From Dyadobacter fanqingshengii (GTDB lineage Bacteria; Bacteroidota; Bacteroidia; Cytophagales; Spirosomataceae): a DNA stretch of 64,000 bases. Of this stretch, positions 4,119-19,060 are shown in pieces (within the stretch, counting starts at the first letter, position 1; every line of letters starts with the position of its first letter). The stretch lies in the NCBI RefSeq assembly GCF_023822005.2, contig NZ_CP098806.1, forward strand, positions 5,206,501-5,270,500, written 5' to 3'. The notes under the pieces were generated by a model. That model saw only the letters and a list, made by a program, of their open reading frames with translations, did not search any database and was not told where the DNA came from. The position numbers and the translations under genes were made by a program.

Positions 4119-4892
4119 TTACCATGCAACAACGTTGTCCGATCCCGCATAATGAGCCGGCCCCGTAAAACTTCCTGTCGGCAGGTCTTCTGACAAGGCT
4201 ACCCTTATTGGTTCGATAGACCCTTCTTCCACCGTATCGGTTCCCTGGAAATTATTGAGTGCCGTTGCCGTAAAACCAGGACTTACCAGGTGTACTTTGA
4301 TATCGGTATCCGCTAAATCGATGGCCAACGAAAGGAAAACGCCATTAAGCGCAGTTTTGGATGCCCCATAAACCGCATCGAAAGCCGAGCGGAATGGATT
4401 AGCCGGATTGGCATTCAAAGTGAGGGAGCCGAGTGCGCTCGACACAGTCACGATCCGTGCTTTTTCAGCCTTCGTCAATAGAGGTAAAAAGGCTTGTGTC
4501 ACGGCAAGTGTACCAAACACATTCGTTTCCCAGACCGTTTTCATTTCGTCGATGGGTGCGATACTGGCGCGTTGAGCTCCAAGAACCTCTTCCATCGCGC
4601 GCCCAGGTTTCCCTGCATTCGAGATGGCCGCGTTATTTACCAGCAGCGTCAGGTATCCGGCTTCGCTTTGAATTTGTCTTACTGCTGCATCGATGGATTG
4701 GGAATCGGTAATATCCAATTGAATAGCTTTTGACTGTTTGCCGATCTCGGTAACGGCAATCTCCCCCTTGTCTTTGTTTCTGGAACCGACGTAAACGGTA
4801 TAGCCTTCATCGGCAAGTGATTTAGCGATCTGGTATCCCACGCCTGTATTTGCTCCTGTTACCAGTGCCACTTTCTTTGTTTCTGTCTGCAT
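4119..4892 (-). CDS. Short-chain dehydrogenase/reductase
   Basis: 257 residues of a classical SDR: cofactor motif TGANTGVG (12-19), NNAA (86-89), active-site serine in VTVSSALGS (148-156) and Y175/K179 in YGASK. The enzyme should reduce or oxidise a carbonyl/alcohol with NAD(P)H; the substrate is not predictable. The second Rossmann strand ends in SRNK (37-40), whose basic residues favour NADPH. It is the first gene of the minus-strand run with two AraC regulators and an epimerase. The upstream 600 bp contain no other gene. Confidence 0.92.
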   Translation of the reverse strand: MQTETKKVALVTGANTGVGYQIAKSLADEGYTVYVGSRNKDKGEIAVTEIGKQSKAIQLDITDSQSIDAAVRQIQSEAGYLTLLVNNAAISNAGKPGRAMEEVLGAQRASIAPIDEMKTVWETNVFGTLAVTQAFLPLLTKAEKARIVTVSSALGSLTLNANPANPFRSAFDAVYGASKTALNGVFLSLAIDLADTDIKVHLVSPGFTATALNNFQGTDTVEEGSIEPIRVALSEDLPTGSFTGPAHYAGSDNVVAW

Positions 4893-5330
4893 ATCATTTT
4901 AATTTTTACACAACAAAATTCCGCGATCATGACACAGCGCTTGTAGCCGAAACAGGAAATGTTGTAGCCAAATTGAGGGTGCATTCAGTATTGTACTTTT
5001 AAGCTTTTTTGGATGTTAAGTCATAATCCTCGAGGCTATTGATAAAGGAGACCAGAATGTTTCGTGCTTTCATCAATTCATAAAACGAGCATGAACTGCT
5101 AAAAGGATAGCCACGACAAAATTACCTACCATACTCAGGCCTTAATGGGCCTCGTATTGGAATTGCAGGTGCGGATCAGGATTTCCTTTAATCGTGGGAT
5201 GTAACTTAAACTATTGATATGAATAAAAGGTGCAATAGAGTTTAAACTGAATATTTGGATAGGGATGTTTTAGATAATCCCGATTGTGGCGGCTTGCTAA
5301 TGTTTCGCAAAAGTTACGACTTACGATAAA
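4893..5330. other. Intergenic gap with a possible gene remnant
   Basis: No full gene seen. On the minus strand 5132-5073 encodes a short hydrophobic peptide (NFVVAILLAVHARF plus ends) that resembles one helix of a DoxX-type membrane protein. It could be a remnant of such a gene, but it is too short to be sure. Confidence 0.3.
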
Positions 5331-5359
5331 ATCCGGCACGGAAAACTTCTGTGCCGGAT
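5331..5359 (-). terminator. Hairpin terminator of the candidate small RNA
   Basis: A 9-bp perfect stem, rich in GC, with an 11-nt loop. On the minus strand it is followed by four T in ATTTTATC. On the plus strand no T-run follows, so it is directional. Confidence 0.5.
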
Positions 5360-5429
5360 CTGCTTATAACAAATCTAAAATTTTAATGAAGAAGACCTTC
5401 TTCCGAACACAAGCCGGGTTGACGAACTA
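5331..5429 (-). ncRNA. Candidate small RNA, about 100 nt
   Basis: A promoter-like element TAGCTTTG (5443-5436, minus) is followed by about 100 nt without a plausible reading frame. The stretch ends in a perfect 9-bp hairpin (ATCCGGCAC at 5359-5351 after orientation, GTGCCGGAT at 5339-5331) followed by TTTATC. A second symmetric element, GAAGAAGGTCTTCTTC, lies inside. The start is inferred as about 7 nt after the -7 element. The U-tract is short, so the terminator is moderate. No known RNA family was recognised. Confidence 0.45.
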
Positions 5430-5435
5430 CTGGGA

Positions 5436-5507
5436 CAAAGCTACATGCAGTTGACTAGCCCGACTATGGTGATGATCCCCATATTATGCGGCAAAATTCC
5501 CTATTTT
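5436..5507 (-). promoter_or_regulatory. Promoter module with AAAATAGGG box (copy A)
   Basis: On the minus strand the 18-mer AAAATAGGGAATTTTGCC starts at 5507, followed by TAATATGGG, and TAGCTTTG begins exactly 64 nt after the start of the box. The same three parts, at the same spacing, occur at 18031-18102 on the plus strand. TAnnTTTG is the known -7 form of Bacteroidota housekeeping promoters. The box overlaps the stop codon of the LuxR-type gene, so it is not an upstream site of that gene. The upstream box would be an activator or repressor site. Confidence 0.6.
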
Positions 5508-8098
5508 AAAATTTCGAGTTTCAAAGCCTCATTGACGGCCTTAACACGTGAGTTTACATTGAGTTTGACCAGCAATGCAGAGATATGGTGATCTACTGTT
5601 TTGGAGGAAATAAACAACTTCGAGGCGATTTCCTTATTCTGCATACCTTCTTTCAGCAGTTGCAGCACGGTCAATTCGCGGAGCGTCAAATTGGCAACAT
5701 TAGAACTTGTCGTTTGCCGCATTCCGCGTGGGATACGTCTGATACCCGAAGCCAGCATCACGGACTTGAGTTTTTGATAAGTAGCCGTTGCGCCCATTTT
5801 CTGGACGAGTTTGATCGCATTGCTTTTATCCTTTTCATCACCATCGAATAGGGTTATGGCCTCTTCGTAAGGACATCCTGCGGCTTGCCAAAATTGCGTA
5901 GCCTGTGTAGCCAGCGTATGGTTGCAGATTTTGTATTTTTCGTACATGCCGTCAACGGATATTTCCTGACTCCTAACTTTAAGCAGCCAGAAACAAAATT
6001 CAGAGTTTTCATAGATATTACCCATTATTTCAGTCATCTCAATGGTCCTGTCCAGCTCGTGGTTGCTCAGGATTTTTTCGCCTGTAAGCCATTCATATTC
6101 AAGTAAGGCAACCATTGCCGGGATGATCCTTTGTAATTCCATTGTCTCAAATGCCTTTTCCTGCGCACGGAGTAAAATTGGAAGTGCCCCTGCTTCTGCT
6201 CTTCTCATTTTAATGGTCCCAACGATGATCATCGGCCCGATGGTTACGACAGACGGGTGTTCGTCGTTTGCAAGGAGTTGTTCCGCAGTTCGGTAAGCGT
6301 CGTCCCATGCGCCGGTTTCCATGTCCATTCTGGCATTGAGCGACACCATATAATTGGTCCAGGAATCGAGCTCGCGTTTTTCGCAATATTGAATTCCTTC
6401 ATCCAGTATTTTTTTTGCGAACGCGAAATCTTTGAGCCGGATTGAACTTGCGCCCAGGTTCGTGTAGGCACGGGCGGCGTGTTCGTGAAAAGAACCTTTC
6501 AATGCGATATGAAGACTTTCCTGCAATACATCAATTCCCAACTGTTTCAATTCCGGCATTTCCATCTGAACGGTGCCAACATTGTTGAGCGCATGAGAAA
6601 GCGTTTCCATGTCATCCAGCTTCTTGGCCATAGCAATGGCAAGCTGTCCCCAGGTCATACATTCATGTGGCTGGTGCGAAAGCATCTTTAATTGAGATAT
6701 ATTACTGAATGCCTGCGCCTTGACCCGCGAGTCAGGCTGTTTTTCCAGAACTTCGACGGCCTGAAACCCGTATTTTTCAGCTTCGTTGCGGTTTCCTTCA
6801 AACCACCACAAACGGGAAAGGAAACGCATACAATCGCCAATTTTTTCCACATCATTTTGCTGCTGGAATAAGGCCAGCAACTTTTCCTGATATTTAATCG
6901 CCTCTCGTGTCTGGTTGGTCAAATAACATTCATAGGCGTAAGATTCGTAATAATGAATGAGCCTGGCCATATCCTGGCCTTTGTAATAAGTTATGGCTGT
7001 ACAATACAACTTAGCCGCTTCCAGATGGGCTCCGAGGCTAATGGCCTGGCGGGCGGCCAACGGAATATAACGGAGCATCAGATCATATTCATTAGCCCGT
7101 TCAGCGTGGTGGATAATTCGTTCTGTTTCCTGCTCCGGCTCGGCGGCTTCCAGCAGCAGATCGAGAATGCTTTTATTTAGAGCCGTTTTGGCGAATGGTG
7201 AAATAGATGATTCAATCGTGCGACGATACAGTTCATGCTTAAAAAATAGTTTATCTGCTTTCAACAACAGGATTTTAGAATCCAATGACTGCATGATCAT
7301 CCCGGTATAAGAGGGGATGAGCTTTTCAAGGTATTTGATCTCCAATCCCGTCGGCGCTACTGAAAGGATCTCCCACACATTGCGGGTTTCGTCACTTTGC
7401 CTGGCACAAACAGAAAGTATGGAGTCTTTGATGCTTTCGGGTAGTCCGCTGCTGTAACTTGCCAGGATCTCGGTAACATAAAAAGGGTTACCGCCGGATA
7501 TTTCGTAAACGTCCTCGCCGCTATATCCTTTCTCAGCTGCCATCCTGTCCACCGCATGTTTGGAGAGAGGAAGGAGTTCCAGACGCGAAAATGAGTCGAT
7601 GGGCAACTGGCCCAAAAGATTTCGCAATGGGTGCCGGGAATGAATTTCGTCATTCCGATAGGTGAGAATAAACATGCACTGGAGTTGATTGATACGCCTG
7701 CTGAGGAATTTGATAAAATCCAGGGTTGCTTCGTCCGCCCAATGAATGTCTTCAAAAATGATGACCGAAGGCTCCGTCAAATTTTTCAATTCCAGAAGGA
7801 AATCAGCGAATAGGTCGCCTCTACTGCCTTTATTTCCTGTCTGCGTTAATGTGTCGTTTCCAAGTTGCCAGATGATATCGTATAACGGTGCCAGTGGCCG
7901 GGGCGTAAATAATGCATCGCAGGTACCCCTGAATATCCTGCAATCTCCTTTCCGCTCAGTGCAAAATGCCTTTACGAGCGAACTCTTACCCATTCCGGCC
8001 TCACCACTCAGCAGAATGCAATGACCTTCTCCGTTTATGGTATCATCAAATTGGGTGTTTAACCGGGTCAAAAAACCCGATCGTTCTATTAATTCCAT
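5501..8098 (-). CDS. Large ATPase LuxR-type regulator (LAL/MalT-like)
   Basis: 865 residues. The N-terminus is an AAA/STAND ATPase with Walker A GEAGMGKS (32-39) and Walker B VIIFEDIHWAD (112-122). The middle (about 330-770) is helical and TPR-like. The last about 64 residues are a LuxR helix-turn-helix (LTLRELTVLQLLKEGMQNKE, then SSKTVDHHISALL). Such proteins bind a ligand or partner through the repeats and activate transcription in an ATP-dependent way; the inducer is unknown here. It is divergent from the metalloprotease gene at 8300. AAAATAGGGAA-type boxes lie on both sides of it and before the DUF4242 gene, so it is a candidate for the protein that reads them. That link is inference. Confidence 0.9.
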   Translation of the reverse strand: MELIERSGFLTRLNTQFDDTINGEGHCILLSGEAGMGKSSLVKAFCTERKGDCRIFRGTCDALFTPRPLAPLYDIIWQLGNDTLTQTGNKGSRGDLFADFLLELKNLTEPSVIIFEDIHWADEATLDFIKFLSRRINQLQCMFILTYRNDEIHSRHPLRNLLGQLPIDSFSRLELLPLSKHAVDRMAAEKGYSGEDVYEISGGNPFYVTEILASYSSGLPESIKDSILSVCARQSDETRNVWEILSVAPTGLEIKYLEKLIPSYTGMIMQSLDSKILLLKADKLFFKHELYRRTIESSISPFAKTALNKSILDLLLEAAEPEQETERIIHHAERANEYDLMLRYIPLAARQAISLGAHLEAAKLYCTAITYYKGQDMARLIHYYESYAYECYLTNQTREAIKYQEKLLALFQQQNDVEKIGDCMRFLSRLWWFEGNRNEAEKYGFQAVEVLEKQPDSRVKAQAFSNISQLKMLSHQPHECMTWGQLAIAMAKKLDDMETLSHALNNVGTVQMEMPELKQLGIDVLQESLHIALKGSFHEHAARAYTNLGASSIRLKDFAFAKKILDEGIQYCEKRELDSWTNYMVSLNARMDMETGAWDDAYRTAEQLLANDEHPSVVTIGPMIIVGTIKMRRAEAGALPILLRAQEKAFETMELQRIIPAMVALLEYEWLTGEKILSNHELDRTIEMTEIMGNIYENSEFCFWLLKVRSQEISVDGMYEKYKICNHTLATQATQFWQAAGCPYEEAITLFDGDEKDKSNAIKLVQKMGATATYQKLKSVMLASGIRRIPRGMRQTTSSNVANLTLRELTVLQLLKEGMQNKEIASKLFISSKTVDHHISALLVKLNVNSRVKAVNEALKLEILK

Positions 8099-8121
8099 GG
8101 CTAATTGATTAAAGTAGGAGT

Positions 8122-8142
8122 GTAAGCCTCTTGTTTACACGT
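8122..8142. promoter_or_regulatory. Inverted repeat upstream of the LuxR-type gene
   Basis: GTGTAA and TTACAC face each other across a 9-nt spacer, 24-44 bp before the LuxR-type ATG. The position suits an operator in the divergent region shared with the metalloprotease gene. Short symmetric sites can arise by chance. Confidence 0.3.
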
Positions 8143-8209
8143 TTGAGTAGATACGTAGCAATGATTATGATAGTTGCTTGAATTGTAATATAGGAGTGGG
8201 AAATATTAC

Positions 8210-8282
8210 AAAATAGGGAATACCTCTTATATCGGAAACAAGATTCCGCCCTTGTTTTGCATCAACAAGTTTTCCTGCTTTG
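8210..8282 (+). promoter_or_regulatory. Partial copy of the AAAATAGGG promoter module (copy C)
   Basis: AAAATAGGGAAT starts at 8210, and CTGCTTTG, a weak form of TAnnTTTG, begins 65 nt later, 18 nt before the ATG of the metalloprotease. Only the first 12 bases of the box match copies A and B; the TAATATGGG block is not at the same place. It is therefore weaker evidence than the other two copies. Confidence 0.35.
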
Positions 8283-8299
8283 ATCAACACATAAATGCT

Positions 8300-9766
8300 A
8301 TGAAAAAAAATGTTCTGGTAGTCATCTTTACTACCCTATGTCTGTACGCTTGTCAGCAGGAGGCTGTCACGGTCGACACGTCCGTTCCTAAGGAGATCCA
8401 TGATTCTGTATCAATTGAAGTATTAAAACGATTTCTTACGGAAGCCATGGGCGCATCGGAAAAAGCAATCGTTTACAATCCGGCCGACACCATGTTTGTC
8501 ATTGAAGGTGACATTTTGATATCCAAAACAGAAGCTGAGAAGCAATATAAAGATAACGTAAATCTGGCCAGCGCGCATCGTCGGAGGCGTTGGCTCGTGT
8601 CTGATACTTGGGTAAGAAACATTAAAATTTATATGCGTCCAGGTACTCCACCAGAATGGGTTGCGGTCACAAGAACTGCCATAGCGCAATGGAATCTACT
8701 GAGGGGTATCAAAGTCAAATTTTCGGAGGTGAGTGAGCTCCGTTGGGCGGACATGGAAATAGTGTCTAATGTTAATGCGGAGAGCCCTCAAGCAGCTAAC
8801 GCGCAGTTTCCAAGCATGGAGGGAAAGCCAGGATCTAGCATTGTTATCAATTTGAAGTATAGCTATATTCCCGACGCTGAAAAATTAACTGTTATGGCCC
8901 ATGAGCTAGGGCACACAATTGGGATAGCGCACACTGATCTGCAGACACCCGGTTTTTTCGAGCAAGTTATCCCGGGTACTCCGACTGCTGACCCTCATTC
9001 AGTAATGAACTCCATGAGCAGTAACTGGACAGGATTTACTATTGGCGACAAGAAGGCCGTTCAGATCTTGTATCCCAATGGTGAATGGGTTCAGATTGCT
9101 GGATCTGCCACGGATATTGCAGTGGGAGCACAAGGGTCGGTTTTTGCCATTGGCAAGGACCCCGTGGGTGCTGATTTTGGAATTTATCGACAAAGCACAT
9201 CCGGTAGCTGGATAAAGATGCCAGGATCGGCCATAAAAATTACGGCAGGTGCAGGTGATGTACCGTGGGTTGTCAATTCGGTTGGGGGTATTTATCGCTT
9301 CAACGGAAGCTTATGGGATCGAATGCCCGGGACTGCAAAGGACATTGCGGCGGCCGGGGACGGTTCGGTATATATGGTCGGAGGGGCCGCAGTTGCAGGA
9401 GGTTTTGGTATACATAAATGGAATGGTACCAACTGGACTAAGCTGCCGGGTGGAGCTGTGCGTATCGCAGCGGGCGCGCAGGGTATCCCTTGGATAGTCG
9501 ACAATACGGGTAAAATTTCCTTCCTCGGAGGTAATTCCACGAGTTGGTCAGGAGTGTCCGGATCGGCCACTGATATTTTCGCCGGACTCGACGGATCCGT
9601 TTACATTACTGGTCGCAATCCCGTCTATGGAGGTTATACCCTATCCAGGTGGAATGGAACTGGTTGGAGCTCAATGCCGGGAACTGCGGTTACATTGGCT
9701 GTTAATCCTATCGGTCAGCCTTGGGCAGTGAATAGCTTGGGAGAAATCTGGTACCAGAGTTTATAG
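8300..9766 (+). CDS. Lipoprotein metalloprotease fused to a tectonin-type propeller
   Basis: 488 residues from the ATG at 8300. The frame is open from 8252, but only this start gives a clean lipoprotein signal, MKKNVLVVIFTTLCLYAC (lipobox LYAC). The middle is a metzincin-type zinc protease: HELGHTIGIAH (H201, E202, H205, H211) and a Met-turn HSVMNSM (about 233-239). It most resembles the M57 'HEIGH' family of Bacteroidota. From about 261 to the end six repeats alternate W-x-x-x-x-GSA-x-x-IA and W-V-x-x-x-G, the pattern of tectonin beta-propellers that bind glycans or lipopolysaccharide. A surface protease targeted by its lectin-like part is a fair inference; the substrate is unknown. Confidence 0.85.
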   Translation: MKKNVLVVIFTTLCLYACQQEAVTVDTSVPKEIHDSVSIEVLKRFLTEAMGASEKAIVYNPADTMFVIEGDILISKTEAEKQYKDNVNLASAHRRRRWLVSDTWVRNIKIYMRPGTPPEWVAVTRTAIAQWNLLRGIKVKFSEVSELRWADMEIVSNVNAESPQAANAQFPSMEGKPGSSIVINLKYSYIPDAEKLTVMAHELGHTIGIAHTDLQTPGFFEQVIPGTPTADPHSVMNSMSSNWTGFTIGDKKAVQILYPNGEWVQIAGSATDIAVGAQGSVFAIGKDPVGADFGIYRQSTSGSWIKMPGSAIKITAGAGDVPWVVNSVGGIYRFNGSLWDRMPGTAKDIAAAGDGSVYMVGGAAVAGGFGIHKWNGTNWTKLPGGAVRIAAGAQGIPWIVDNTGKISFLGGNSTSWSGVSGSATDIFAGLDGSVYITGRNPVYGGYTLSRWNGTGWSSMPGTAVTLAVNPIGQPWAVNSLGEIWYQSL

Positions 9767-9783
9767 TCCAAAGCGACAAATAA

Positions 9784-9983
9784 ATTCAGAAAAATTCATC
9801 CATTGTCGAGTACGCCACGCTTATCACCGACATCAAAAATCCACCTGCTGTTCCCGAAGGTTTTCAGGTAAGGACGATGAATTGGAGACCAATACAGAAT
9901 TTAATTTGTGGACGCTGCATACCTGGGTTGAACTGGATAATACGCACGGCATATTCGCTCCTCACAATACTACATTACCGTGA
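9784..9983 (+). pseudogene. Frameshifted gene fragment
   Basis: Two plus-strand frames read as protein next to each other. The first, from about 9784, gives EYATLITDIKNPPAVPEGFQ. Near 9870 sense moves to another frame giving LWTLHTWVELDNTHGIFAPH and ending at TGA 9983. The second part looks like the C-terminus of small secreted hypothetical proteins that end in an LHxWxxxxNPxGxFxxxNP-like motif (from memory, no family named). No start codon is present. Probably the 3' remnant of a lost gene between the protease and the DUF3455 lipoprotein. Confidence 0.4.
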
Positions 9984-10011
9984 TCCATTTATAGTGTAAA
10001 AACTGATTATA

Positions 10012-10623
10012 ATGATCAAAATATTTCATTCGTTCACAACTTTGATAAGGATGGCTGTATTTGCAGCAGTCTCTCTGACCGCATGTACCGACCATGTTGA
10101 TCCAGACACGTCATCGCCAGCTTTTAAAATTGCCCAGGCCCTGGCATTGCCAATTCCAGCGGCAGTAGCATTGCCCGCTAATCCTAATGGAAACAGTCCA
10201 GTGGCAGTTTATTTTGCAGAAGGCGTACAAAGATACAAGGCGCAGGAAAAACTATATAGCTATCCTACTTCATATGAATGGGTATTCGTTGAGCCAGAAG
10301 CTGATTTATTCGCTGTTTCAAATGCGAAAGTGGGACGACATTTTGGTGGGCCATCCTGGACGGTTGATGCTACGAATTCGTTGATCGTAGGCCAGCAGTT
10401 TTCTCCGGCAAAAACTACTAACGTGGATCCGCAGCACATCGATTGGCTGCTCTTAATGCCTAAGACAGGAACAATACCTAATGGCAGATTTCAAGAGACC
10501 GATTATATTCAGCGCATTGCAACAAAGGGAGGGAGGGCGCCTGTTGTCCCGCCGGGTAATGCGCTGGAAACCGTAGACGTTCCTTACACGGCTGTTTATA
10601 TATTCTCAAAAATCAATCCCTGA
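10012..10623 (+). CDS. DUF3455-family lipoprotein
   Basis: 203 residues. The N-terminus has a lipoprotein signal ending in the lipobox LTAC (about 22-25). The rest matches the DUF3455 pattern: VAVYFAEGVQRYKA, WVFVEPEADLF, GRHFGGPSW, DWLLL, YIQRIATKGGRAP and the closing VPYTAVYIFSK. Members are secreted or lipid-anchored proteins of unknown function, found in bacteria and fungi. It lies downstream of the metalloprotease and the gene fragment on the same strand but has 240 bp of its own leader, so it may be transcribed separately. Confidence 0.85.
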   Translation: MIKIFHSFTTLIRMAVFAAVSLTACTDHVDPDTSSPAFKIAQALALPIPAAVALPANPNGNSPVAVYFAEGVQRYKAQEKLYSYPTSYEWVFVEPEADLFAVSNAKVGRHFGGPSWTVDATNSLIVGQQFSPAKTTNVDPQHIDWLLLMPKTGTIPNGRFQETDYIQRIATKGGRAPVVPPGNALETVDVPYTAVYIFSKINP

Positions 10624-10658
10624 AACCAAGTTCTGATAAGAGATTAACAGTTTTGTAG

Positions 10659-12446
10659 TTAATGTAGGGCCTGCATTAGATTCAAATGCTTGTCGTGCGC
10701 CCTTTTCATTTCCAGACCTTCTTTCAGGCTCATCAAAGGCTGCTTGCCATTATGAGCATTGATCATGCTGATCTTGAAAACGATTTCCCAATGTCGGTAA
10801 ATCTCCTTCCATGCGAAAAACAACGAGTGGGCGGGGTCGTAAATGTGTGTGGGTTCGCTGCCTGTACCATTCAATTCGATGATCGAAAAATGTCTTCCGG
10901 CTTCGAGTTCTTCCCAATTTTTAAAGCGGATATCCAGTCTGCCGAAATAAAAGCCGGGCACCTGTGTGCATACCTTATCGATCATATCTGTTAGGCCAGG
11001 TGTTATGCGGCTATGCAGGTCAATGAACCTGGATCCACGGCTATGATTGCCGTACGGTACCAGGGTAAGTATCTCCCCGGAGTCAGGAATGTTATCAAAC
11101 TGATCGCCAAAGACAGCTGCCAATGCGTGCAGCTGCAAAACAGCTCGGTCATTTTGCATTAGTAGAGACAGCAGACTGGTCTGTCCATCTCCGGTCACGC
11201 TTAAAAACTCTTTCCCGACAATACCTGATAGTTGCCCGTTTTTATTTCCTGGAATACGGTAATAGAAAATGCCGATCTCATGGGAATAGTCGATATACTC
11301 CTGTAATAAAAAGTCAACCTTGCTGCGAGAACGATAGGCGTCTAAGTCAGCCGGCTTACGTAAAAGTTCAACTTGAATGCCGCGCTCGCCGATATCGGGT
11401 TTGGCAATCAAAGGGAAATCAAGAGAGGACTCGCGGAGCACCGAATTGATCTCCCCAGCCGACATTCCGGTTTTGCAAAGTACGCCTTTTGGATATAACC
11501 CTTCCGGCAATAATGGGTAAATATCGCTTTTGCGTTCCTGGATAAAACCGGAGTATGCTATCCCGGGATTTGCCGCACTGAAAAACAACAATGACCGGGC
11601 CCGCAAGCTGAGCCATAACCACAGCGGGACCAGGGGAAGATACAAGCATGCGAATGGCCAGTATTCCCAATGTCTGAGACGGATCCAAAATCTCCGGGTT
11701 TTCCAATAAAAACTGTTAAACAATAATGGTGTGCCAGAAGCCTGTGTTTGCATGCGTTTGGCAGCGACTTCGCCCGAGTGCAGATCATGATAAAGCACGC
11801 TAGCCCGCCTGTCAGTCGAAAGCGCTAACAAGGTGACACTCACCGTCCGGATATTTGCATTATGAGGCGCATTGCTGGTCTCATACCTCATGTTGGCGCC
11901 TAGGTGAAAGTCCGCCACAGCTTCCGGTTTTACCTGCCTGGTCTCTTTGAGCCACTGTATTAGGGCGTTTTCACGTTGTAATTGCATATCGCGGTCATAT
12001 AATGTTACCGACGCCCAGATATGTGGTTTGGTCGCGTCGAGCTCAGTGAGATGTTTATGGTCCCCGTCCCACGTGCAACGCCGAAGTCTTCCTTGGGTTA
12101 AAAGAATGATGGTGAATGGCTCAATGGCTTTAAGGTCCATAGCCTGGAAATGGTCGGCAGGCGAATTTGTACTCATTATATCCAGCATGATGAGTCCCCG
12201 GCTTTTGCGGTACGGCGTCTGGTAAAAATGATTTTTAAAACCGCCGTTTAAGAGCACTGCTGCCGAACGGTCACCGTTCAGAACGATCCATGTCCCGCCT
12301 GCCTGCGCATCTTTGGGGTAGATCATTTCAATTTTATTTACGCAATAGCACTCGGGCGGCACTGCCGGAGCCCGGTCAATGCGTTCGTCCCGGTTAGAGG
12401 TGAGGAAAATGCTGTTTTCAGCCGGGATGTAGGTTACTGTACACAT
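10659..12446 (-). CDS. NRDE (TANGO2-like) domain fused to an ATP-grasp membrane protein
   Basis: 595 residues in one unbroken frame. Residues 1 to about 235 are an NRDE/TANGO2-type domain, starting MCTVTYIP with NRDE at 18-21; this fold is related to Ntn hydrolases and linked to heme handling in recent work on TANGO2. Residues about 245-300 are basic then hydrophobic (EYWPFACLYLPLVPLWLWLS), followed by an ATP-grasp-like region to the end (FPLIAKPDIGERGIQ, DFLLQEYID, YFGRLDIRF, IIELNGTGSEP). In related bacteria I recall the second half as a separate protein. The ATG overlaps the stop of the DinB gene by 13 bp, so the two are translationally coupled. Activity unknown. Confidence 0.82.
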   Translation of the reverse strand: MCTVTYIPAENSIFLTSNRDERIDRAPAVPPECYCVNKIEMIYPKDAQAGGTWIVLNGDRSAAVLLNGGFKNHFYQTPYRKSRGLIMLDIMSTNSPADHFQAMDLKAIEPFTIILLTQGRLRRCTWDGDHKHLTELDATKPHIWASVTLYDRDMQLQRENALIQWLKETRQVKPEAVADFHLGANMRYETSNAPHNANIRTVSVTLLALSTDRRASVLYHDLHSGEVAAKRMQTQASGTPLLFNSFYWKTRRFWIRLRHWEYWPFACLYLPLVPLWLWLSLRARSLLFFSAANPGIAYSGFIQERKSDIYPLLPEGLYPKGVLCKTGMSAGEINSVLRESSLDFPLIAKPDIGERGIQVELLRKPADLDAYRSRSKVDFLLQEYIDYSHEIGIFYYRIPGNKNGQLSGIVGKEFLSVTGDGQTSLLSLLMQNDRAVLQLHALAAVFGDQFDNIPDSGEILTLVPYGNHSRGSRFIDLHSRITPGLTDMIDKVCTQVPGFYFGRLDIRFKNWEELEAGRHFSIIELNGTGSEPTHIYDPAHSLFFAWKEIYRHWEIVFKISMINAHNGKQPLMSLKEGLEMKRAHDKHLNLMQALH

Positions 12447-12940
12447 TTATCCTGATGGTATCGGATTGTCGAACTGGCAACGCCGAAATCCTCAGCCAGC
12501 TCAATGTTAGATATAGCTCTGATACCGATCTTCAATATCGCCATATGGTGCACTGTGTGTTCGAGGTTGTACAGCAGCTCGCGCTCGTAGCTAGTCTGAA
12601 CATGAAAATTCGGCGTTCCGCTGCTCGGTTTATAAGCCAGCAGCAGTGTTTTATTATCATATTTGAGGTCCGCGATTATTTGGCGGAGTTTTAATATAGC
12701 ACAATCCAGGTGGTTTTCAATAGCCTTTTCCCGGCGTCTGGCATCGTAATCTACACAGCCGACAAGATAGCCCTGTTCGAGCTCCTGGAAAAACTCAATG
12801 ATGTGCCGCACATGCATACCCAGCGAAGCTTCCGACAATACGGGAATTTTGCTGATATACTGCACATCGCTAAGCCTGCTCAGGACATCGCCGAGTTGTT
12901 CCAACAGTGGAATCAGTGATGTTGTTATTAGTCTGTTCAT
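12434..12940 (-). CDS. DinB-like four-helix metal-binding protein
   Basis: 168 residues from the ATG at 12940; a GTG at 12982 in the same frame would add 14 residues and is less likely. The helical sequence with LGMHVRHIIEFF and, later, LEHTVHHMAILK gives the spaced histidines of the DinB/YfiT superfamily, whose members bind a divalent metal and often act as thiol-dependent transferases. The 3' end overlaps the start of the NRDE/ATP-grasp gene. It follows DoxX and two YHS genes on the same strand, so it is probably part of their operon. Exact reaction unknown. Confidence 0.82.
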   Translation of the reverse strand: MNRLITTSLIPLLEQLGDVLSRLSDVQYISKIPVLSEASLGMHVRHIIEFFQELEQGYLVGCVDYDARRREKAIENHLDCAILKLRQIIADLKYDNKTLLLAYKPSSGTPNFHVQTSYERELLYNLEHTVHHMAILKIGIRAISNIELAEDFGVASSTIRYHQDKCVQ

Positions 12941-12993
12941 ATCAATCGTATGGTCAAAATCAGCCAGTACCTCGCCAGGCACCGGCTGATCAA

Positions 12994-13392
12994 TTAATGT
13001 TCACGCATTCTAATGCCTGACAAACTGCTACGTTGCCAATAGGCCAGAATCAAACAGCTTCCCATCACCAGCACCGCGTAAATAAACAGCTGCCCCGAAT
13101 CGCCTTGCACTTCAATACCCAGACGTGTAAGGTGCATAAATATCGCGCCGGTCATTACGCCGATCCCCACCAAGGCTCCGTAAGCTGTGGTGCGTGGCAC
13201 CAGAATCAATACCGAAGCGATCAGTTCAAAAACGCCGACCAGTATACGGCCCCATGGCTCCATCCCCAGACTGGAAAAGATGTAAACGGATTCCGGGGCT
13301 GCGGTAAATTTGAAGAACAGGGTTTGAAGCATGATCCCGGCGGAGGCCAATCTGAGCAGCCATGTCCAGGTCTTTTGAGTTTTACGCCTCAT
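12994..13392 (-). CDS. DoxX-like membrane protein
   Basis: 132 residues from the ATG at 13392, whose A is the last base of the preceding YHS gene's TAA stop (TAATG). An upstream in-frame start at 13419 would overlap that gene by 28 bp. Four hydrophobic helices with the DoxX-type features KF in helix 1 (LQTLFFKFTA), then GVFELIASVLILVP and a third helix GALVGIGVMTGAIFMHL. DoxX proteins are inner-membrane proteins linked to redox and sulfur or quinone metabolism; no catalytic residues can be assigned. Stop-start overlap indicates co-translation with the YHS protein. Confidence 0.85.
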   Translation of the reverse strand: MRRKTQKTWTWLLRLASAGIMLQTLFFKFTAAPESVYIFSSLGMEPWGRILVGVFELIASVLILVPRTTAYGALVGIGVMTGAIFMHLTRLGIEVQGDSGQLFIYAVLVMGSCLILAYWQRSSLSGIRMREH

Positions 13393-13832
13393 TATTGCTT
13401 GTCTTTGATCAGTGGCCACTCTGTATCGGCTTTCCTAATGAGCTCATCCCGCTTTTTCGACCAGTTTTCCTTCACTTTCTGGTTGTAATTGAAGTATAAT
13501 TTATCGTTGACGATGGTCCAGGTATCCGTTTCAGTAGGAGCTTTGTGACCTTGGGATGTTCCGTAGGCACAATAGCCGCCGTATTGGGGCATATACATGT
13601 CGGGATTTGCTTTGAATGCATCCAGGTTGGCGCGGTTGGCAAATAGCCACTGGGCATCTTTGTATTGGTAGGATAAGCTATCGGCCCCGGCAACAGGTCC
13701 GGCATCTTTGAAGAATGCCACTACGTCATATCCTTTAATGGCTTTGCCACCGGGTGCGAATATCTCTGATTTTTGAGCATAACTGCCCAATGCAGTTAGT
13801 ATGAAAGTCGTTGCTAAAATAATTTTTCTCAT
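13392..13832 (-). CDS. Secreted YHS-domain protein
   Basis: 146 residues with a cleavable signal peptide ending near LGSYAQ. The mature part is a YHS domain: IKGYDVVAFFKD, a WLFANRANLDAFKANPD helix and PQYGGYCAYG, then KLYFNYNQKV. YHS domains are TRASH-like and often bind metal ions or sit beside metal-handling proteins; only one cysteine is present here, so classical metal binding is uncertain. It is a paralogue of the next gene upstream (13848-14315) and is co-translated with DoxX. Periplasmic. Confidence 0.88.
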   Translation of the reverse strand: MRKIILATTFILTALGSYAQKSEIFAPGGKAIKGYDVVAFFKDAGPVAGADSLSYQYKDAQWLFANRANLDAFKANPDMYMPQYGGYCAYGTSQGHKAPTETDTWTIVNDKLYFNYNQKVKENWSKKRDELIRKADTEWPLIKDKQ

Positions 13833-13847
13833 GATGTATTTTGGATT

Positions 13848-14315
13848 TTAAGGTACAAATTTGCTCCAGTTCTTATTCGCCTGCGCTTTTAGACGGGCTT
13901 CGTCCTGATTCCAGCTTTTAAGGGTGTTGTTGAAATACTTATTGTAAAAAAGATAAAGCTTACCGTCAATGACTTTGAAAGTTTCGGGATCAACTTCCAC
14001 CTTTTCCCCTTTCTTGCCCATTGCAAATGCACACCAGCCGCCATACTGAGGTTCGTAGCGGGCAGGGTTACCCGCAAATTCATCCCGGTTCTGTTTGGAC
14101 ATAAACCGATAGACAGTTCCGTTGAAGTTGGTCGAAAACTCCTTTTTACCTTCAAGTGCCTTGTTCATCATAAAATATGCAACCGGATCATAGCCTTGAA
14201 TCGCCAGCCCGGAACCTTCCAGGTTAAATTGCTTTTTACGAATCTCGACCGTTTGCGCAAAGGCTTGTCCAAGACCGAGCGCGAGCAATAAAAAAATGCT
14301 GATTTGCTTTTTCAT
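13848..14315 (-). CDS. Secreted YHS-domain protein (paralogue)
   Basis: 155 residues, signal peptide to about AFAQ (residues 18-21). YHS signature: IQGYDPVAYFMMNKAL, FMSKQNRDEFAGNPARYEPQ, YGGWCAFAMG and DGKLYLFYNKYF, with a tryptophan-rich end. Its layout is the same as that of the YHS gene 15 bp downstream, which shows a tandem duplication, although the two have diverged a good deal. It lies between the spondin lipoprotein gene (45 bp upstream) and the second YHS gene. The group probably forms one periplasmic system, possibly in metal or redox stress. Confidence 0.88.
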   Translation of the reverse strand: MKKQISIFLLLALGLGQAFAQTVEIRKKQFNLEGSGLAIQGYDPVAYFMMNKALEGKKEFSTNFNGTVYRFMSKQNRDEFAGNPARYEPQYGGWCAFAMGKKGEKVEVDPETFKVIDGKLYLFYNKYFNNTLKSWNQDEARLKAQANKNWSKFVP

Positions 14316-14360
14316 TAGATTGAATTTAAAACCCGTTGCATTGCCACAGCGAGGCGTGGG

Positions 14361-15647
14361 TTATTGCAGCGTAACTTTGATCATGCTGCCGATCGCTGGC
14401 AGCGTGGTGAATTGGTTAGGGTTGGGGACCAGAGCAATGGCTTTACTCTCTGCCAACGGCGTTCCAGCCAGATTAAATTGGGTAATACCTGCACCGGGAA
14501 ATTGGTCAATGGCCGTACCATTATCATATAATCCGATGGAGCTGGAAACATCTCCCGTGGTGCTTCCGTCAATACCATTGCCTTTCGGGGCAAAAAACCA
14601 GTCGTTCGAAAATCCGTACATGGTTGCAATCGCGATGCGGTCGCCGGGCATAAGTGACAGTGACTGGGAAACTTTGCCGCCGGGATTTCCGCCGATTTTA
14701 GGCAACAACACAGTGCTGTTAGGTTCTTTGAGAACGTAAACATTTTTAACGCCACCCTTACCCGTCAGGGCCTTAGCCAACATGTCGGCATTGCCTTTTT
14801 GTGCCAATTCCTTCAATCCTTCGCCCCTGTCGTTTTCCCCGGACTTGAAAAAAGGGTTTTCACTACCGTTGTAAACAATCACAAGGATTGGCGACAGCGG
14901 AGTGAATATGCCTGTCAGACCGGTCAGCATTGCACTCATTGGTCCATTGTCGCCTGCTTCGGCAATGCGTGTCAATGCTTCCGTTGTAGCCTTATCTTTG
15001 GAATAGATCGGTTCGGGCAAAAGCAGGTCGTTGCCCGCCACATAGGAAATCGCCCAGTTGCCTGGACTGAATGGTGTTTCGTTAGCCGTACCGCCTGACT
15101 GGTTTTTGATCGTGACAGTGAACATTGAACTGCCGTCATAATTTAGCGACACCTTCATCAATTGCGATGCGGGCAGAAATGCATGGCCATAGTCGTCCAT
15201 GCCATTCACTTCCTTGATGTTTCGTTTCGCAGCTTCTGCCGTGCCAGGGTGCACGAGGGCCATTCCTGGTTTGCCGTTCACCCTTGTCCCGTTATCCCAT
15301 AGTTTGATCTTCGACGAAATTTCTCCTGTAATGGGCGTTCCATCGTCACCATAGAGCCTTATACCCGGATTTTCTGGTGCAAAAAACAGGTCATTGCTCC
15401 ACCCGTACATGGTGGCGAAGGTCAGGCGCTGGTTTTTGGATGCCGAAAATGAGAAAGATATGGATTGCCCGGGCAGGATTACAGGGGGAGCGCCGGCCCC
15501 TTTGAATGTTCCCGACTGTACCAACGGTTTGCTGTCAAGGACATTCTCGATCGAAATAGTCCTCGGCTGTGGTTGAGGATCGTGGTCCTTCGTACAAGAA
15601 CTGAAAATAAGGGCTGTCAGCGATAGCCCAAGCAGTGGTTTGATCAT
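14361..15647 (-). CDS. Spondin-domain lipoprotein with two repeats
   Basis: 428 residues from the ATG at 15647, which starts the lipoprotein signal MIKPLLGLSLTALIFSSC (lipobox FSSC). The frame is open to 15686, but the extra residues do not suit a signal peptide. Two copies of a Spondin_N-like domain are visible: the first with LTFATMYGWSNDLFFAPE and KLWDNGTRVN, the second with IAIATMYGFSNDWFFAPK and GLYDNGTAIDQFPG. Between them is a linker around IYSKDKATTEALTRIAEAGD. Bacterial spondin proteins are surface or periplasmic proteins of unknown role. It heads the minus-strand cluster with YHS, DoxX and DinB genes and is divergent from the two-component pair. Confidence 0.85.
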   Translation of the reverse strand: MIKPLLGLSLTALIFSSCTKDHDPQPQPRTISIENVLDSKPLVQSGTFKGAGAPPVILPGQSISFSFSASKNQRLTFATMYGWSNDLFFAPENPGIRLYGDDGTPITGEISSKIKLWDNGTRVNGKPGMALVHPGTAEAAKRNIKEVNGMDDYGHAFLPASQLMKVSLNYDGSSMFTVTIKNQSGGTANETPFSPGNWAISYVAGNDLLLPEPIYSKDKATTEALTRIAEAGDNGPMSAMLTGLTGIFTPLSPILVIVYNGSENPFFKSGENDRGEGLKELAQKGNADMLAKALTGKGGVKNVYVLKEPNSTVLLPKIGGNPGGKVSQSLSLMPGDRIAIATMYGFSNDWFFAPKGNGIDGSTTGDVSSSIGLYDNGTAIDQFPGAGITQFNLAGTPLAESKAIALVPNPNQFTTLPAIGSMIKVTLQ

Positions 15648-15785
15648 ATCCGGTTGTGTTTTGCGTGTTGGAATGATGCAAAACAACGGAGACGATATCC
15701 CACCGGCGTTACAGAATTATAACAAAAGTATCACACCGGATTTTGTGCTGTTTTATTTATGAACTTGCAGAAAATCAGGGGGCAA

Positions 15786-16490
15786 ATGGATACAAGAAAT
15801 GTTTTGATCATTGAGGACGACAGCAATATCACAGAGCTGCTGACCATCCATCTATCTGATCTGGGATGTAAGGTGGTTGCTGAAAAAAATGGGCAGAATG
15901 GTCTTGAGAGGGCATTGGATTCGGCATTCGAGCTGATTATCCTGGATGTAATGCTGCCAGGTATGAACGGGATGGAAGTGTGCAGAAAGGTAAGGCAGAA
16001 CGACCGACAAACGCCAATAATGATGCTTACTGCGCGGTCCGAAGAAATTGATAAGGTTATGGGCCTTGAAACAGGCGCCGACGATTACCTTACCAAACCC
16101 TTCAGCATCAGGGAATTTATTGCACGTGTACGCGTCATTTTTCGCCGGAGCGAAGAAAAGGCCAGGTACAGCACGCCGCGGCCACCGCAGATCAGCATTG
16201 CCGGTCTTGAAATCGATATTGATAAACGTAAAGTTATGCTACTCGGGGAGCGCATCGAGCTTTCGCCGCGTGAATTTGAGCTGATCGTCCTGCTGGCTTC
16301 CAATCCTGGCAGGAGTTATAGCCGCAAACAGCTGCTGAGTCTGGTTTGGGGTTACGATTTCGAAGGCTATGAGCATACGGTTAACACACATATTAACCGG
16401 CTCAGAGGAAAAATTGAAGTGGATGTTTCCAATCCGTCATTTGTATTAACCACCTGGGGCATTGGCTACCGATTTAATGAAGACCTGTAA
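15786..16490 (+). CDS. OmpR-family response regulator
   Basis: 234 residues from the ATG at 15786 (preceded by AGGGGG; a longer start at 15759 is possible). The receiver domain begins NVLIIEDD, with phospho-acceptor D54 in ILDVMLPGMNG and conserved lysine in LTKPFSIREF. The C-terminal winged helix has ELSPREFELIVLLASNPG and VNTHINRLRGKIE. It is followed after 1 nt by its histidine kinase. The divergent cluster headed by the spondin gene, whose start lies about 140 bp away, is the most likely target. Confidence 0.95.
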   Translation: MDTRNVLIIEDDSNITELLTIHLSDLGCKVVAEKNGQNGLERALDSAFELIILDVMLPGMNGMEVCRKVRQNDRQTPIMMLTARSEEIDKVMGLETGADDYLTKPFSIREFIARVRVIFRRSEEKARYSTPRPPQISIAGLEIDIDKRKVMLLGERIELSPREFELIVLLASNPGRSYSRKQLLSLVWGYDFEGYEHTVNTHINRLRGKIEVDVSNPSFVLTTWGIGYRFNEDL

Positions 16491-16491
16491 T

Positions 16492-17994
16492 ATGTCTGTA
16501 AAAACCATCCGTGGAAACCTGTTATTCTGGAAGATCAGCGGCGTATTTGCGAGCCTTTTACTAGTGCTTGCCCTGGTGTTCGTCTTAATTGGATCGCGGT
16601 TTTCCAAATCGTACTATATGGCTGCCCATCAGCAGCTTTATGGTGACATTGCGGGGCACCTTGCCTCGTTTACCCAACCTATCAAAAACGGAAAGCCTGA
16701 TACGACGGTTACGCACGATATCATCCATGCAACGATGGTGGCCAATCCGAGTGTGGAAGTATACCTGCTCGATACACTCGGCAAGATCACCGATTATGTA
16801 GTACCCCAAGCTACCGTTCAAATGAACAAAGTCGACATGGCCAAGGTCAGGGAATGGCTGGCGGCCGATTCAAGCAAGCGGCCGCTGGGTGATAATCCTA
16901 AACATCCCGACGAAGCAAGCATTTTCTCTGTCGCACCTGTTTTTGAAAATGGGAAGGTGGCGGGGTATGTATATGCGGTACTCGCAAGCGAAAAGCAGAA
17001 GGAAATTCTCGGCTCGCTCAATGATGACCTTTATTTCCGGCTAGCTGTTTACATATTTTTTGCGGCCCTGCTAGGAGCATTTGTGGTGGGTGTAGTGACT
17101 TTTTTTCTGATCACCGACAGCATCTGCAGCATTGCAGGCGTAGTGAAAACCTTCAAGGATGGAGACTACTCAGCAAGGATACGTGGCTACGCAAAGGGTA
17201 ATCTGGGTGTACTCACGTCTACCTTCAATGATATGGCCGATGTCATCGTCGATAACATTGAAAAAATCACCGCCGCCGATCGGTTCCGGCAGGAGCTGAT
17301 CGCGAATGTGTCGCATGACTTGCGGACGCCGCTTTCGATTATGCAGGGCTATGTGGAAACGCTGATGATCAAAGGTGATTCGCTGTCCCACGCTGAAACC
17401 GAGCGGTATCTATCCATTGTCCACGAGGGCACTAAAAGGCTTTCCGGGTTGGTGGATCAATTGTTCCAGTACTCGAAACTGGAAGCCAATGTCGTTACAC
17501 CGCAAAAAGAGCTGTTTCCGATAGGAGAGCTGGTCTCTGACATTCTCAGTGCCTATCAGCTGAAAGCCACGGAACGCAGTATCCGCCTGACACTCGAAGC
17601 ACCCACCGTTCTGCCGACGGTATTCGCGGATATCGCACTGACAGAGCGGATTTTCCAAAACCTGCTTGACAATGCTTTCAAATTTACTCCGGATGGCGGG
17701 CAAATATCCGTAGGCCTCCTCGAACTCGGCAACGGCGTGAGGGTAAGAGTTACCGACACCGGCGTGGGGATAGCCAAGGAATATCAGGAGCAGATCTTCG
17801 AACGCTACAAACAGGCCGACCTGCATATCGCATCCTCGAAAGGGATAGGACTGGGCTTGGCTATCGTCCGAAAAATCCTTGAATTACATCAGTCTTCCAT
17901 TGAGGTTTTGAGTGAACCGGGAAAGGGAGCCATATTTGAATTTTTCTTGCAAAGTGGATTCTATCCTGTTGTAGTCCCTAATAGTAATAAGTAG
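16492..17994 (+). CDS. Sensor histidine kinase (HAMP, EnvZ/BaeS type)
   Basis: 500 residues from the ATG at 16492, 1 nt after the regulator's stop. TM1 about 15-35, a periplasmic sensor of about 145 residues, TM2 about 185-208, then HAMP (to about 260). The HisKA H-box is ANVSHDLRTP with H275. The catalytic domain shows the N-box NLLDNAFKF, G1 VTDTGVGIA and G2 KGIGLGLAIV. The periplasmic part has no family I recognise, so the signal is unknown. It should phosphorylate the regulator at 15786. Confidence 0.95.
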   Translation: MSVKTIRGNLLFWKISGVFASLLLVLALVFVLIGSRFSKSYYMAAHQQLYGDIAGHLASFTQPIKNGKPDTTVTHDIIHATMVANPSVEVYLLDTLGKITDYVVPQATVQMNKVDMAKVREWLAADSSKRPLGDNPKHPDEASIFSVAPVFENGKVAGYVYAVLASEKQKEILGSLNDDLYFRLAVYIFFAALLGAFVVGVVTFFLITDSICSIAGVVKTFKDGDYSARIRGYAKGNLGVLTSTFNDMADVIVDNIEKITAADRFRQELIANVSHDLRTPLSIMQGYVETLMIKGDSLSHAETERYLSIVHEGTKRLSGLVDQLFQYSKLEANVVTPQKELFPIGELVSDILSAYQLKATERSIRLTLEAPTVLPTVFADIALTERIFQNLLDNAFKFTPDGGQISVGLLELGNGVRVRVTDTGVGIAKEYQEQIFERYKQADLHIASSKGIGLGLAIVRKILELHQSSIEVLSEPGKGAIFEFFLQSGFYPVVVPNSNK

Positions 17995-18030
17995 ATGATT
18001 TCGATGAACATTAAGTGCACCTGCTATTCT

Positions 18031-18102
18031 AAAATAGGGAATTTTGCCTAGTAATATGGGCAATAATACCAAAATCCATATAACCAGTGCACAATATCTT
18101 TG
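18031..18102 (+). promoter_or_regulatory. Promoter module with AAAATAGGG box (copy B)
   Basis: AAAATAGGGAATTTTGCC at 18031, TAATATGGG at 18052-18060 and the -7 element TATCTTTG at 18095-18102, 32 nt before the ATG of the DUF4242 gene. Spacing and boxes equal those of copy A at 5436-5507 (minus). The region between the boxes and the -7 element has diverged, which points to selection on the boxes rather than a recent duplication. Confidence 0.65.
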
Positions 18103-18133
18103 TGACCAAATTATAAACAAATAAAAAAATCAA

Positions 18134-18412
18134 ATGAAAAAATTTGTTATCGAACGAGATATTCCTGGTTTGGGAAATCTTTCAGGAGAAGAATTGCAGG
18201 CTATCTCGCAATTATCGTGCGCCACAGTCAGCGAACTCGGTGTGCCTTATCATTGGATACAATCATTTGTTACAAATGATAAACTTTACTGTGTCCACAT
18301 TGCGGAGTCAGAGGAAGTGATACGAGAGCACGCCCGGCTTGGAAATTTTCCAATTAGTTCCATTGCGGAAGTTAAAACCATCATTGATCCCACTACCGGC
18401 GCAAACACCTAG
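18134..18412 (+). CDS. DUF4242 family small protein
   Basis: 92 residues. MKKFVIERDIPGLGNLS, ISQLSCATVSELG, the YCVHIAESEEVIREHAR stretch and ending IIDPTTG match the DUF4242 family, a ferredoxin-like fold for which a nickel-binding actinobacterial member is known. A cysteine and histidines that could bind metal are present (C32, C56, H58, H67 approximately). It has its own promoter with the AAAATAGGG box 103 bp before the ATG. Cytoplasmic; role unknown. Confidence 0.85.
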   Translation: MKKFVIERDIPGLGNLSGEELQAISQLSCATVSELGVPYHWIQSFVTNDKLYCVHIAESEEVIREHARLGNFPISSIAEVKTIIDPTTGANT

Positions 18413-18544
18413 TAGCAGGCACAATTCCATTGTGAAGATTAAGGTTGTTATGGCCATATCCGCTCCGAACATTTCCGCGGCGAATATTATTGCTATTTGA
18501 CCAATGGCAACAACAATGGTATAGTCAAAACGACTCGCCCTAAA

Positions 18545-19060
18545 ATGTTATTAACGATTATGGAATTGCCAGAAAAAGAAAGCCAGTTAGTAATTAGTTC
18601 CCAAATTAGGATGTTAAACGATAACGACAAAATTCCTTACAATTTACTGTTAGATGCTGATCCATCGAAAAAACTTGTTGATAGTTATCTATCAAGCGGA
18701 GAAACCTATCTTACAGTGATTGAAAATGAAACAATTGGAGTTTGTGTACTTGTGACTGTGAATTCCGAAACTATTGAGATAAAAAATCTTGCTGTTGCTG
18801 AGAATATGCGAGGTCAGGGAATTGGAACAAGAATGATAAAAAATTCCTTTCAAATTGCTAAACAGAAAGGATATAAAACCATTCTTATTGCTACTTCTAC
18901 CCCTAATATAGGGCCACTATATCTTTATCAGAAAATGGGATTTGAATATGATTACCTCGTCAAGCATTATTTTGACAGTAACATTAACAACTATAATGAA
19001 CCACTATTTGATCATGGAATTAAATGTAATCATCTGATAGTACTCTCAAAAAGGTTATAA
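18545..19060 (+). CDS. GNAT-family N-acetyltransferase
   Basis: 171 residues from the ATG at 18545 (another ATG at 18560 is possible; the frame is open upstream to about 18443). The acetyl-CoA loop is NMRGQGIGTRMIKNSF, preceded by IKNLAVAE, and the fold closes with LYLYQKMGFEYD, all typical of GNAT enzymes. The substrate cannot be told. The gene is clearly more AT-rich than its neighbours and sits alone in an AT-rich stretch (18.4-19.3 kb), which is compatible with horizontal gain. Confidence 0.85.
   Translation: MLLTIMELPEKESQLVISSQIRMLNDNDKIPYNLLLDADPSKKLVDSYLSSGETYLTVIENETIGVCVLVTVNSETIEIKNLAVAENMRGQGIGTRMIKNSFQIAKQKGYKTILIATSTPNIGPLYLYQKMGFEYDYLVKHYFDSNINNYNEPLFDHGIKCNHLIVLSKRL

Follow-up and report, generated by a model that had tools for sequence, protein, structure and literature searches.

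A 64,000-nucleotide stretch of the Dyadobacter fanqingshengii genome (contig NZ_CP098806.1, positions 5,206,501 to 5,270,500; hereafter the window, whose own numbering is used below) contains two promoter-like segments, 12.5 kb apart and on opposite strands, that share the same boxes at the same spacing. One of them, site A, precedes a gene for a DUF4242 protein; the other, site B, starts at the stop codon of a gene for a LuxR-type ATPase. What do these copies do, and which protein would read them? An earlier note, made from the letters of the window, had read them as conserved regulatory structure belonging to a small regulon and had named the LuxR-type ATPase as a candidate for its activator. 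Comparison with related genomes strongly supports this description, from which we infer binding and activation. We consider it very probable that sites A and B, together with a weaker third site, C, serve the LuxR-type ATPase (5501-8098(-)) as operators, through which it would activate the DUF4242 gene and a metallopeptidase gene (Table 1).

Results

Two exact copies of a direct repeat

The pattern AAAATAGGG-n12-TAATATGGG matches with 0 mismatches at 18031-18060(+) and at 5507-5478(-), and so does its longer form AAAATAGGGAATTTTGCC-n3-TAATATGGG. TAnnTTTG, the known promoter consensus of Bacteroidota, starts 64 nt past the first base in both sites. The two copies with identical spacing that the earlier note had reported are thus exact, and the pattern was found in 0 of 100 shuffles. 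The "18-bp box" of the same note stands as a sequence match, but not as a single unit: the real unit consists of a 9-bp box that occurs twice in direct orientation, and beyond AAAATAGGGAAT the second half of the 18 bp is spacer, as is the TTTTGCC singled out earlier.

The full pattern occurs nowhere else in the genome (6.27 Mb, 2 contigs), even when 3 mismatches are allowed. Among 99 genomes searched as relatives (source included), the strict pattern occurs in two, the source and a congener (G017), which has both copies in the same arrangement. A match to a shorter pattern with 3 mismatches at genome position 2554555(+) (L016) and its counterpart in G046 were judged to be chance, because a reversed control gave 3 matches in 48 genomes and the pattern itself matched in 6 of 48, source and G017 included; at both places the downstream TTTG lies at a different distance. 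A looser pattern gave a 2-mismatch match at 885978(-) and 1 match in its control. Rfam had 0 matches in 4800-18700.

Table 1. Features of the window that bear on the proposed regulon.
Feature	Position	Strand	Remark
Site B hairpin, TTTTAT tail	5329..5361	-	Downstream of promoter B; predicted terminus of a transcript of roughly 100-110 nt
Site B -7 element, TAGCTTTG	5436..5443	-	Kept in G017, G037 and G032
Site B box 2, TAATATGGG	5478..5486	-	Exact match
Site B box 1, AAAATAGGG	5499..5507	-	Contains LuxR stop TAG (5503-5501); ranks 1st of the window in the hold-out model
LuxR-type ATPase, 865 aa, AAA_16 and C-terminal GerE HTH	5501..8098	-	Pfam; co-conserved with the site
Site C box 1, TAATATAGG, degenerate	8186..8194	+	GG-GG 23 nt
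Site C box 2, AAAATAGGG	8210..8218	+	Score equal in G017
Site C -7-like element, TTGTTTTG	8252..8259	+	TTnnTTTG; TTTG at 8256-8259, 40 nt after box 2 GG
M57-type metallopeptidase with tectonin domain	8300..9766	+	Pfam; candidate target of site C
DUF3455 protein, next after the metallopeptidase	10012..10623	+	Pfam
Site A box 1, AAAATAGGG	18031..18039	+	Exact match; site ranks 2nd of the window in the Dyadobacter-free model
Site A box 2, TAATATGGG	18052..18060	+	GG 22 nt after box 1 GG
Site A -7 element, TATCTTTG	18095..18102	+	TTTG 40 nt after box 2 GG
DUF4242 / SCO4226-like protein, 92 aa	18134..18412	+	Pfam PF14026; proposed target of site A

A scoring model for the proposed operator and the third site

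From 33 sites at LuxR 3' ends in Bacteroidota, the unit reads TAAAATAGGG(AAT), then T(A/T)AAATAGGGAA, then a C-rich stretch. The two GG are 22 nt apart in 27 of these sites and 21 nt in 6, and TTTG follows the second GG at 40 nt in 26, at 39 nt in 3 and at neither distance in 4. By eye, CTCCC after box 2 in some distant loci (L097, Acidobacteriota; L092, Chloroflexota) forms an inverted half. A two-box matrix was built on the 33 sites, and a score of at least 17 was taken as a site; 2 of 1,078,551 background positions reached it, both then followed by TTTG at 40 nt (L073, L108). The matrix replaced an earlier, looser two-box pattern, which had found 71 matches across 43 Bacteroidota loci outside Dyadobacter, compared with 21-30 in each of five shuffles; in 35 of the 43 loci a site stood next to LuxR. 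In a hold-out model from 25 training sites, without any Dyadobacter, the three best places of the window are B (38.4), A (35.3) and C (18.1), each of them followed by TTTG at 40 nt; the next-best place scores 12.3 and is without TTTG at this distance. The position 39437(+), which scores 17.3 in the full model and 12.3 in the hold-out model, lies within an ORF, has no TTTG at 40 nt and was set aside as chance.

The partial copy that had been noticed before the metalloprotease is real, with two boxes and a TTTG at the same 40 nt as in A and B, and site C is best read as a third member of the regulon with a weak first box. Its -7-like element bears on the annotation as well: since the TTG at 8252 listed for the metallopeptidase ORF sits inside this element, translation is more likely to start at the ATG at 8300.

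Relatives of the metallopeptidase and of the DUF3455 protein are found near LuxR in D. soli (G032) and D. arcticus (G037). In D. soli, LuxR has the DUF3455, M57 and HGSNAT-type genes to one side and DUF4242 to the other; the window shares the cluster, except that the HGSNAT gene is missing and the LuxR end lacks DUF4242. An HGSNAT-type gene stands directly behind the site corresponding to C in both G017 and D. soli. In G017, a gene for an HGSNAT-type membrane acyltransferase and a further ORF (L006:3610-5888(-)) are placed between LuxR and the metallopeptidase; mostly because these two are missing in the window, the copies are 12.5 kb apart here and 15.6 kb in G017.

The LuxR-type ATPase

The candidate regulator matches AAA_16 (E 6.8e-19) and, at residues 803-856, the GerE HTH (E 2.2e-18), while for central helical repeats, a further feature of MalT-like regulators, a TPR_12 match (E 1.5e-5, 25.5 bits) is below the cut-off of 30.1. 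The consensus of 10 aligned LuxR sequences includes GEAGIGKSS and VFEDIHWAD, the Walker motifs of the N-terminal ATPase. An N-terminal AAA_16 ATPase and a C-terminal GerE HTH are also the layout of the LAL family, of which MalT is the type; the scores against the NCBIfam models for MalT (34.6 of 537 bits) and IniR (32.9 of 750) stay under their cut-offs. MalT recognises direct repeats of its MalT box. Unlike in LAL regulators such as MalT, there are two 9-bp repeats here with their GG 21-22 nt apart, the presumed targets are DUF4242 genes, and the proposed operator overlaps the regulator's own stop codon. LuxR stops were covered in 50 of the 51 Bacteroidota loci described below: 32 of these 50 end in AAA TAG GG, as the window does at 5507-5499, and 3 more in AAA TAG GT.

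The HTH part matches models or chains of PedR, GerE and DevR, the PedR model with 48.7 of 120 bits and hence under its cut-off. The consensus of GerE of B. subtilis equals the PedR motif. This motif is given as RWWTRGGYNNYY (RWWTRGGY) in a review (PMC13421787), and AAATAGGG of the present boxes fits RWWTRGG / RWWTRGGYNNYY. PedR is described as a redox-sensing dimer; unlike PedR, the protein here is an ATPase, and two boxes stand in fixed phase with a Bacteroidota promoter. Three direct repeats are bound by MilO, according to PMC11784345. In the open-licence literature, we found neither a description of this clade of LuxR-type ATPases nor a link of AAAATAGGG to LuxR, and among the matches listed those for AAAATAGGGAA with a regulator look unrelated by title.

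The site follows LuxR within Dyadobacter

Of 48 Dyadobacter genomes, 9 have relatives of the LuxR-type ATPase (10 genes in all) and 12 have DUF4242. In five genomes (G032, G002, G018, G009 and G015), the LuxR and DUF4242 genes adjoin each other on the same strand with 98-101 bp between them, and a related site in this interval overlaps the LuxR stop codon (AAA TAG GG). Among the sites of the genus at LuxR 3' ends or DUF4242 genes, TAnnTTTG is found at ten: window A and B, the two of G017, and those of G037, G032, G002, G018, G009 and G015. Its offset is 64 nt in nine of the ten and 63 nt in G015, where the spacer is one base shorter; the two G034 sites are without the full element. D. arcticus and one of the two G034 LuxR genes have a 3' site and no DUF4242 in the locus. 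When orthologous DUF4242 promoters were compared, as the earlier note had advised, the site was present in 7 of 7 LuxR-bearing Dyadobacter (5 of the 7 sites belong to the training set) and in 0 of 5 without LuxR, where the best score was -3.0.

Another regulator lies closer to site A. In the source and in G017, an OmpR-type response regulator (15759-16490(+)) and a histidine kinase (16462-17994(+)) are encoded immediately upstream of it, and OmpR-type regulators also use direct repeats, so that this pair might control site A with LuxR as a bystander. We regard this as very improbable. At the cut-off used, 17 of the 48 Dyadobacter genomes have the kinase, and in 10 other loci examined (of 15), with 1.5-kb flanks, neither the site nor DUF4242 was present in any; the best site score in these 10 was 4.9, against 43.6. 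Across the phylum, moreover, the site follows LuxR rather than the response regulator and kinase. Since the other kinase loci examined are without DUF4242 and site, DUF4242 probably reached its place beside the kinase secondarily, in the line that the source shares with G017.

The site follows LuxR across Bacteroidota and, in part, beyond

From the best 80 of 362 LuxR matches, 79 distinct loci were kept, 51 from Bacteroidota (L040-L089, L108) and 28 more distant, among which a Bacteroidetes MAG (L090), which is without a site, was counted. A site scoring at least 17 lies beside LuxR in 50 of the 51 Bacteroidota loci, on both sides in 32; these loci are related, some near-identical, and the counts are not independent. 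The exception is L085, where a DUF4242 gene that is 1.3 kb from LuxR, on its upstream side, is preceded by a site. At LuxR 3' ends, 41 of 49 testable loci have the site, a count that includes 32 training loci (9 of 17 outside training), and 8 of 49 score below 17. The training set contains no divergent site, and the divergent promoter has one in 41 of 50 loci, with 9 of 50 below 17; TTTG follows at 40 nt in 35 of these 41 and at 39 nt in 2. Control windows in LuxR coding DNA gave 0 sites in 1020. Adjacent DUF4242 genes have the site in all 33 divergent cases and in 32 of the 33 downstream ones (65 of 66 in total).

In a sample of the phylum, this LuxR (at 1e-100) was found in 2 of 395 genomes, source included. 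The strict operator pattern has matches in 23 of the 395 and its reversed control in 12; source A and B match it at 3 mismatches. The sole match with fewer than 2 mismatches (1) is in G235, 27 nt beyond the other of the two LuxR matches (39% identity) and before a DUF4242 gene. The pattern is matched at 2-3 mismatches by 21 genomes without this LuxR, of which 10 belong to one family that has 22-bp tandem repeats. Among these matches, several genomes of the Bacteroidota family f37 (for example G319:C47:30646, G447:C160:1381, G271:C17:27453) show successive operator-like 22-bp repeats, AAAATATGGAATC and so on, which look like a tandem array.

Outside Bacteroidota, conservation of the site is partial at this score. 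It is present in 11 of the 28 more distant loci and absent from 17 with a model built on Bacteroidota, although half-sites can be seen by eye in some of the remainder (L094, L104). The 3' end has it in 7 of 26 testable loci and the divergent promoter in 4 of 28, three of them near-identical; downstream DUF4242 genes reach 17 in 2 of 7 cases, and the single divergent DUF4242 gene does not. The loci in which the operator can be recognised include some with the labels Ignavibacterium, Chloroflexota and Acidobacteriota.

These results bear on whether A and B might be functionless remnants of a duplication or inversion of the segment 5508-18030. Outward-facing inverted copies are what would be expected after an inversion with staggered breaks, the only two strict copies of the genome stand inverted at the two ends of this one segment, and the position of DUF4242 beside LuxR in five other Dyadobacter makes a rearrangement likely. 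The earlier note had preferred a remnant in case the genome held only two copies and related species lacked the boxes; only two strict copies exist, but related loci do have the boxes. Of 72 positions, 25 are different between A and B, yet boxes and spacing are kept, and site B differs from its G017 copy by 3 changes in the first 72 nt, all between the boxes. The site also recurs at every one of the divergent DUF4242 genes counted above, and a common origin of A and B, which is possible, would not remove their function. We therefore give functionless remnants hardly more credit than control by the two-component system.

Site B, a probable promoter without its gene

No DUF4242 gene follows the 3' site in the window, in G017 or in D. 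arcticus; the boxes and the -7 element are kept, with a hairpin downstream. As far as tested, then, the copy at 5507(-) does face a region without a gene, as originally described. In the source and G017, DUF4242 with its own site is instead beside the two-component system. Site B is probably the original DUF4242 promoter, from which the gene is absent. With its start assumed, promoter B is predicted to give a short RNA of about 100-110 nt (window 5430-5325(-)). A strict terminator scan after B found none, despite the strong hairpin with TTTTAT, and this hairpin may simply be the LuxR terminator. In D. arcticus, one A-U pair of the hairpin stem has become G-C, with both sides changed, and one pair is lost.

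Both an inversion with duplicated ends and losses from two modules are compatible with the trees as the way in which the window came to hold both sites, and the second can be pictured more specifically. Dyadobacter has two LuxR clades, and site A could be a relic of a second LuxR-DUF4242 module that lost its LuxR, with site B as the first module minus DUF4242 and the surviving LuxR serving both. The DUF4242 protein of the window is 84 and 86% identical to DUF4242 of the other clade, against 78-80%, and groups there in the best DNA tree, yet the support for this grouping is 64/60 and the alternative is kept (p-AU 0.27). Shuffles did not establish a LuxR 3'-end relic in front of site A: 39 of 500 score as high against the window's own LuxR end, and over 13 LuxR ends the number ranges from 0 to 298 of 500. 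We hold this history to be possible and somewhat doubtful; it is compatible with sites A, B and C as operators of the LuxR-type ATPase.

The DUF4242 protein

The proposed target of site A is the sole PF14026 match in the source genome (E 9.1e-20, 71.1 bits against a cut-off of 28.5). At E 1 the protein matched no solved chain, and the G235 relative reached E 0.67 with 4oi3. It shares its Pfam family with SCO4226 of Streptomyces coelicolor. Unlike the target of site A, SCO4226 adjoins phoU-phoR-phoP, and control by PhoRP and nickel is reported for it in PMC4186839 and PMC4991794, in which the word "luxr" has 0 occurrences. For nickel together with LuxR, the only match in the open-licence literature is unrelated by title.

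Divergent DUF4242 genes are present in 33 of 50 testable Bacteroidota loci (within L043-L089 and L108), and most encode two domains. Two PF14026 stretches each, and also DUF3303, were seen in the DUF4242 proteins of L044 and L064 (divergent) and L067 (elsewhere). By eye, the N-termini of the divergent two-domain proteins resemble signal or lipoprotein sequences. Of additional note, other genes behind the operator (L041:5317-5844, L086:8674-9267, L073:9613-10296 and L076:4742-5863) likewise look lipoprotein-like by eye; none of the four has a Pfam match at 0.01.

Discussion

Based on these comparisons, we propose a mechanism for the LuxR-type ATPase at its operators. Through its GerE-type HTH domains at the C-terminus, the protein would contact the two 9-bp repeats, which are about two helical turns apart and present the same face of the DNA. 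Since the repeats lie just upstream of the core promoter, the bound protein would recruit RNA polymerase to the -7 element; the fixed geometry points to activation, and repression may be an alternative that is compatible with the sequence. As in other Bacteroidota promoters with TAnnTTTG, the -7 element is complete in A and B, and C has TTnnTTTG only; what goes beyond such plain promoters is that the repeats appear to be placed where an activator would touch the polymerase. From its domain make-up, the protein may assemble in a signal-driven and ATP-dependent manner as MalT does. Its targets would be, through site A, the DUF4242 protein and, through site C, the M57 metallopeptidase, possibly together with the DUF3455 protein. 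Site B would mark the ancestral position of the DUF4242 promoter at the LuxR 3' end, given the presumed direction of the rearrangement.

A broader scheme can be offered only as speculation that we think rather unlikely in full: a cross-phylum cassette in which a LAL ATPase with its stop codon in the operator controls one or two DUF4242 genes, whose products may feed back as ligand carriers or inhibitors, and in which the gene-less 3' promoter, seen in three Dyadobacter, yields a regulated RNA of about 80-110 nt.

Judged from DNA comparison, the sites, the LuxR-type ATPase and DUF4242 together look like a widespread and little-studied control circuit. The circuit is small enough to be studied with one protein and one reporter. 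An operator that overlaps the stop codon of its own regulator, recognisable in Bacteroidota and some other phyla, is unusual. DUF4242 proteins gain a candidate regulatory partner, and a clade of LuxR-type ATPases for which we found no description in the open-licence literature gains a putative DNA target, a promoter geometry and a family of target genes.
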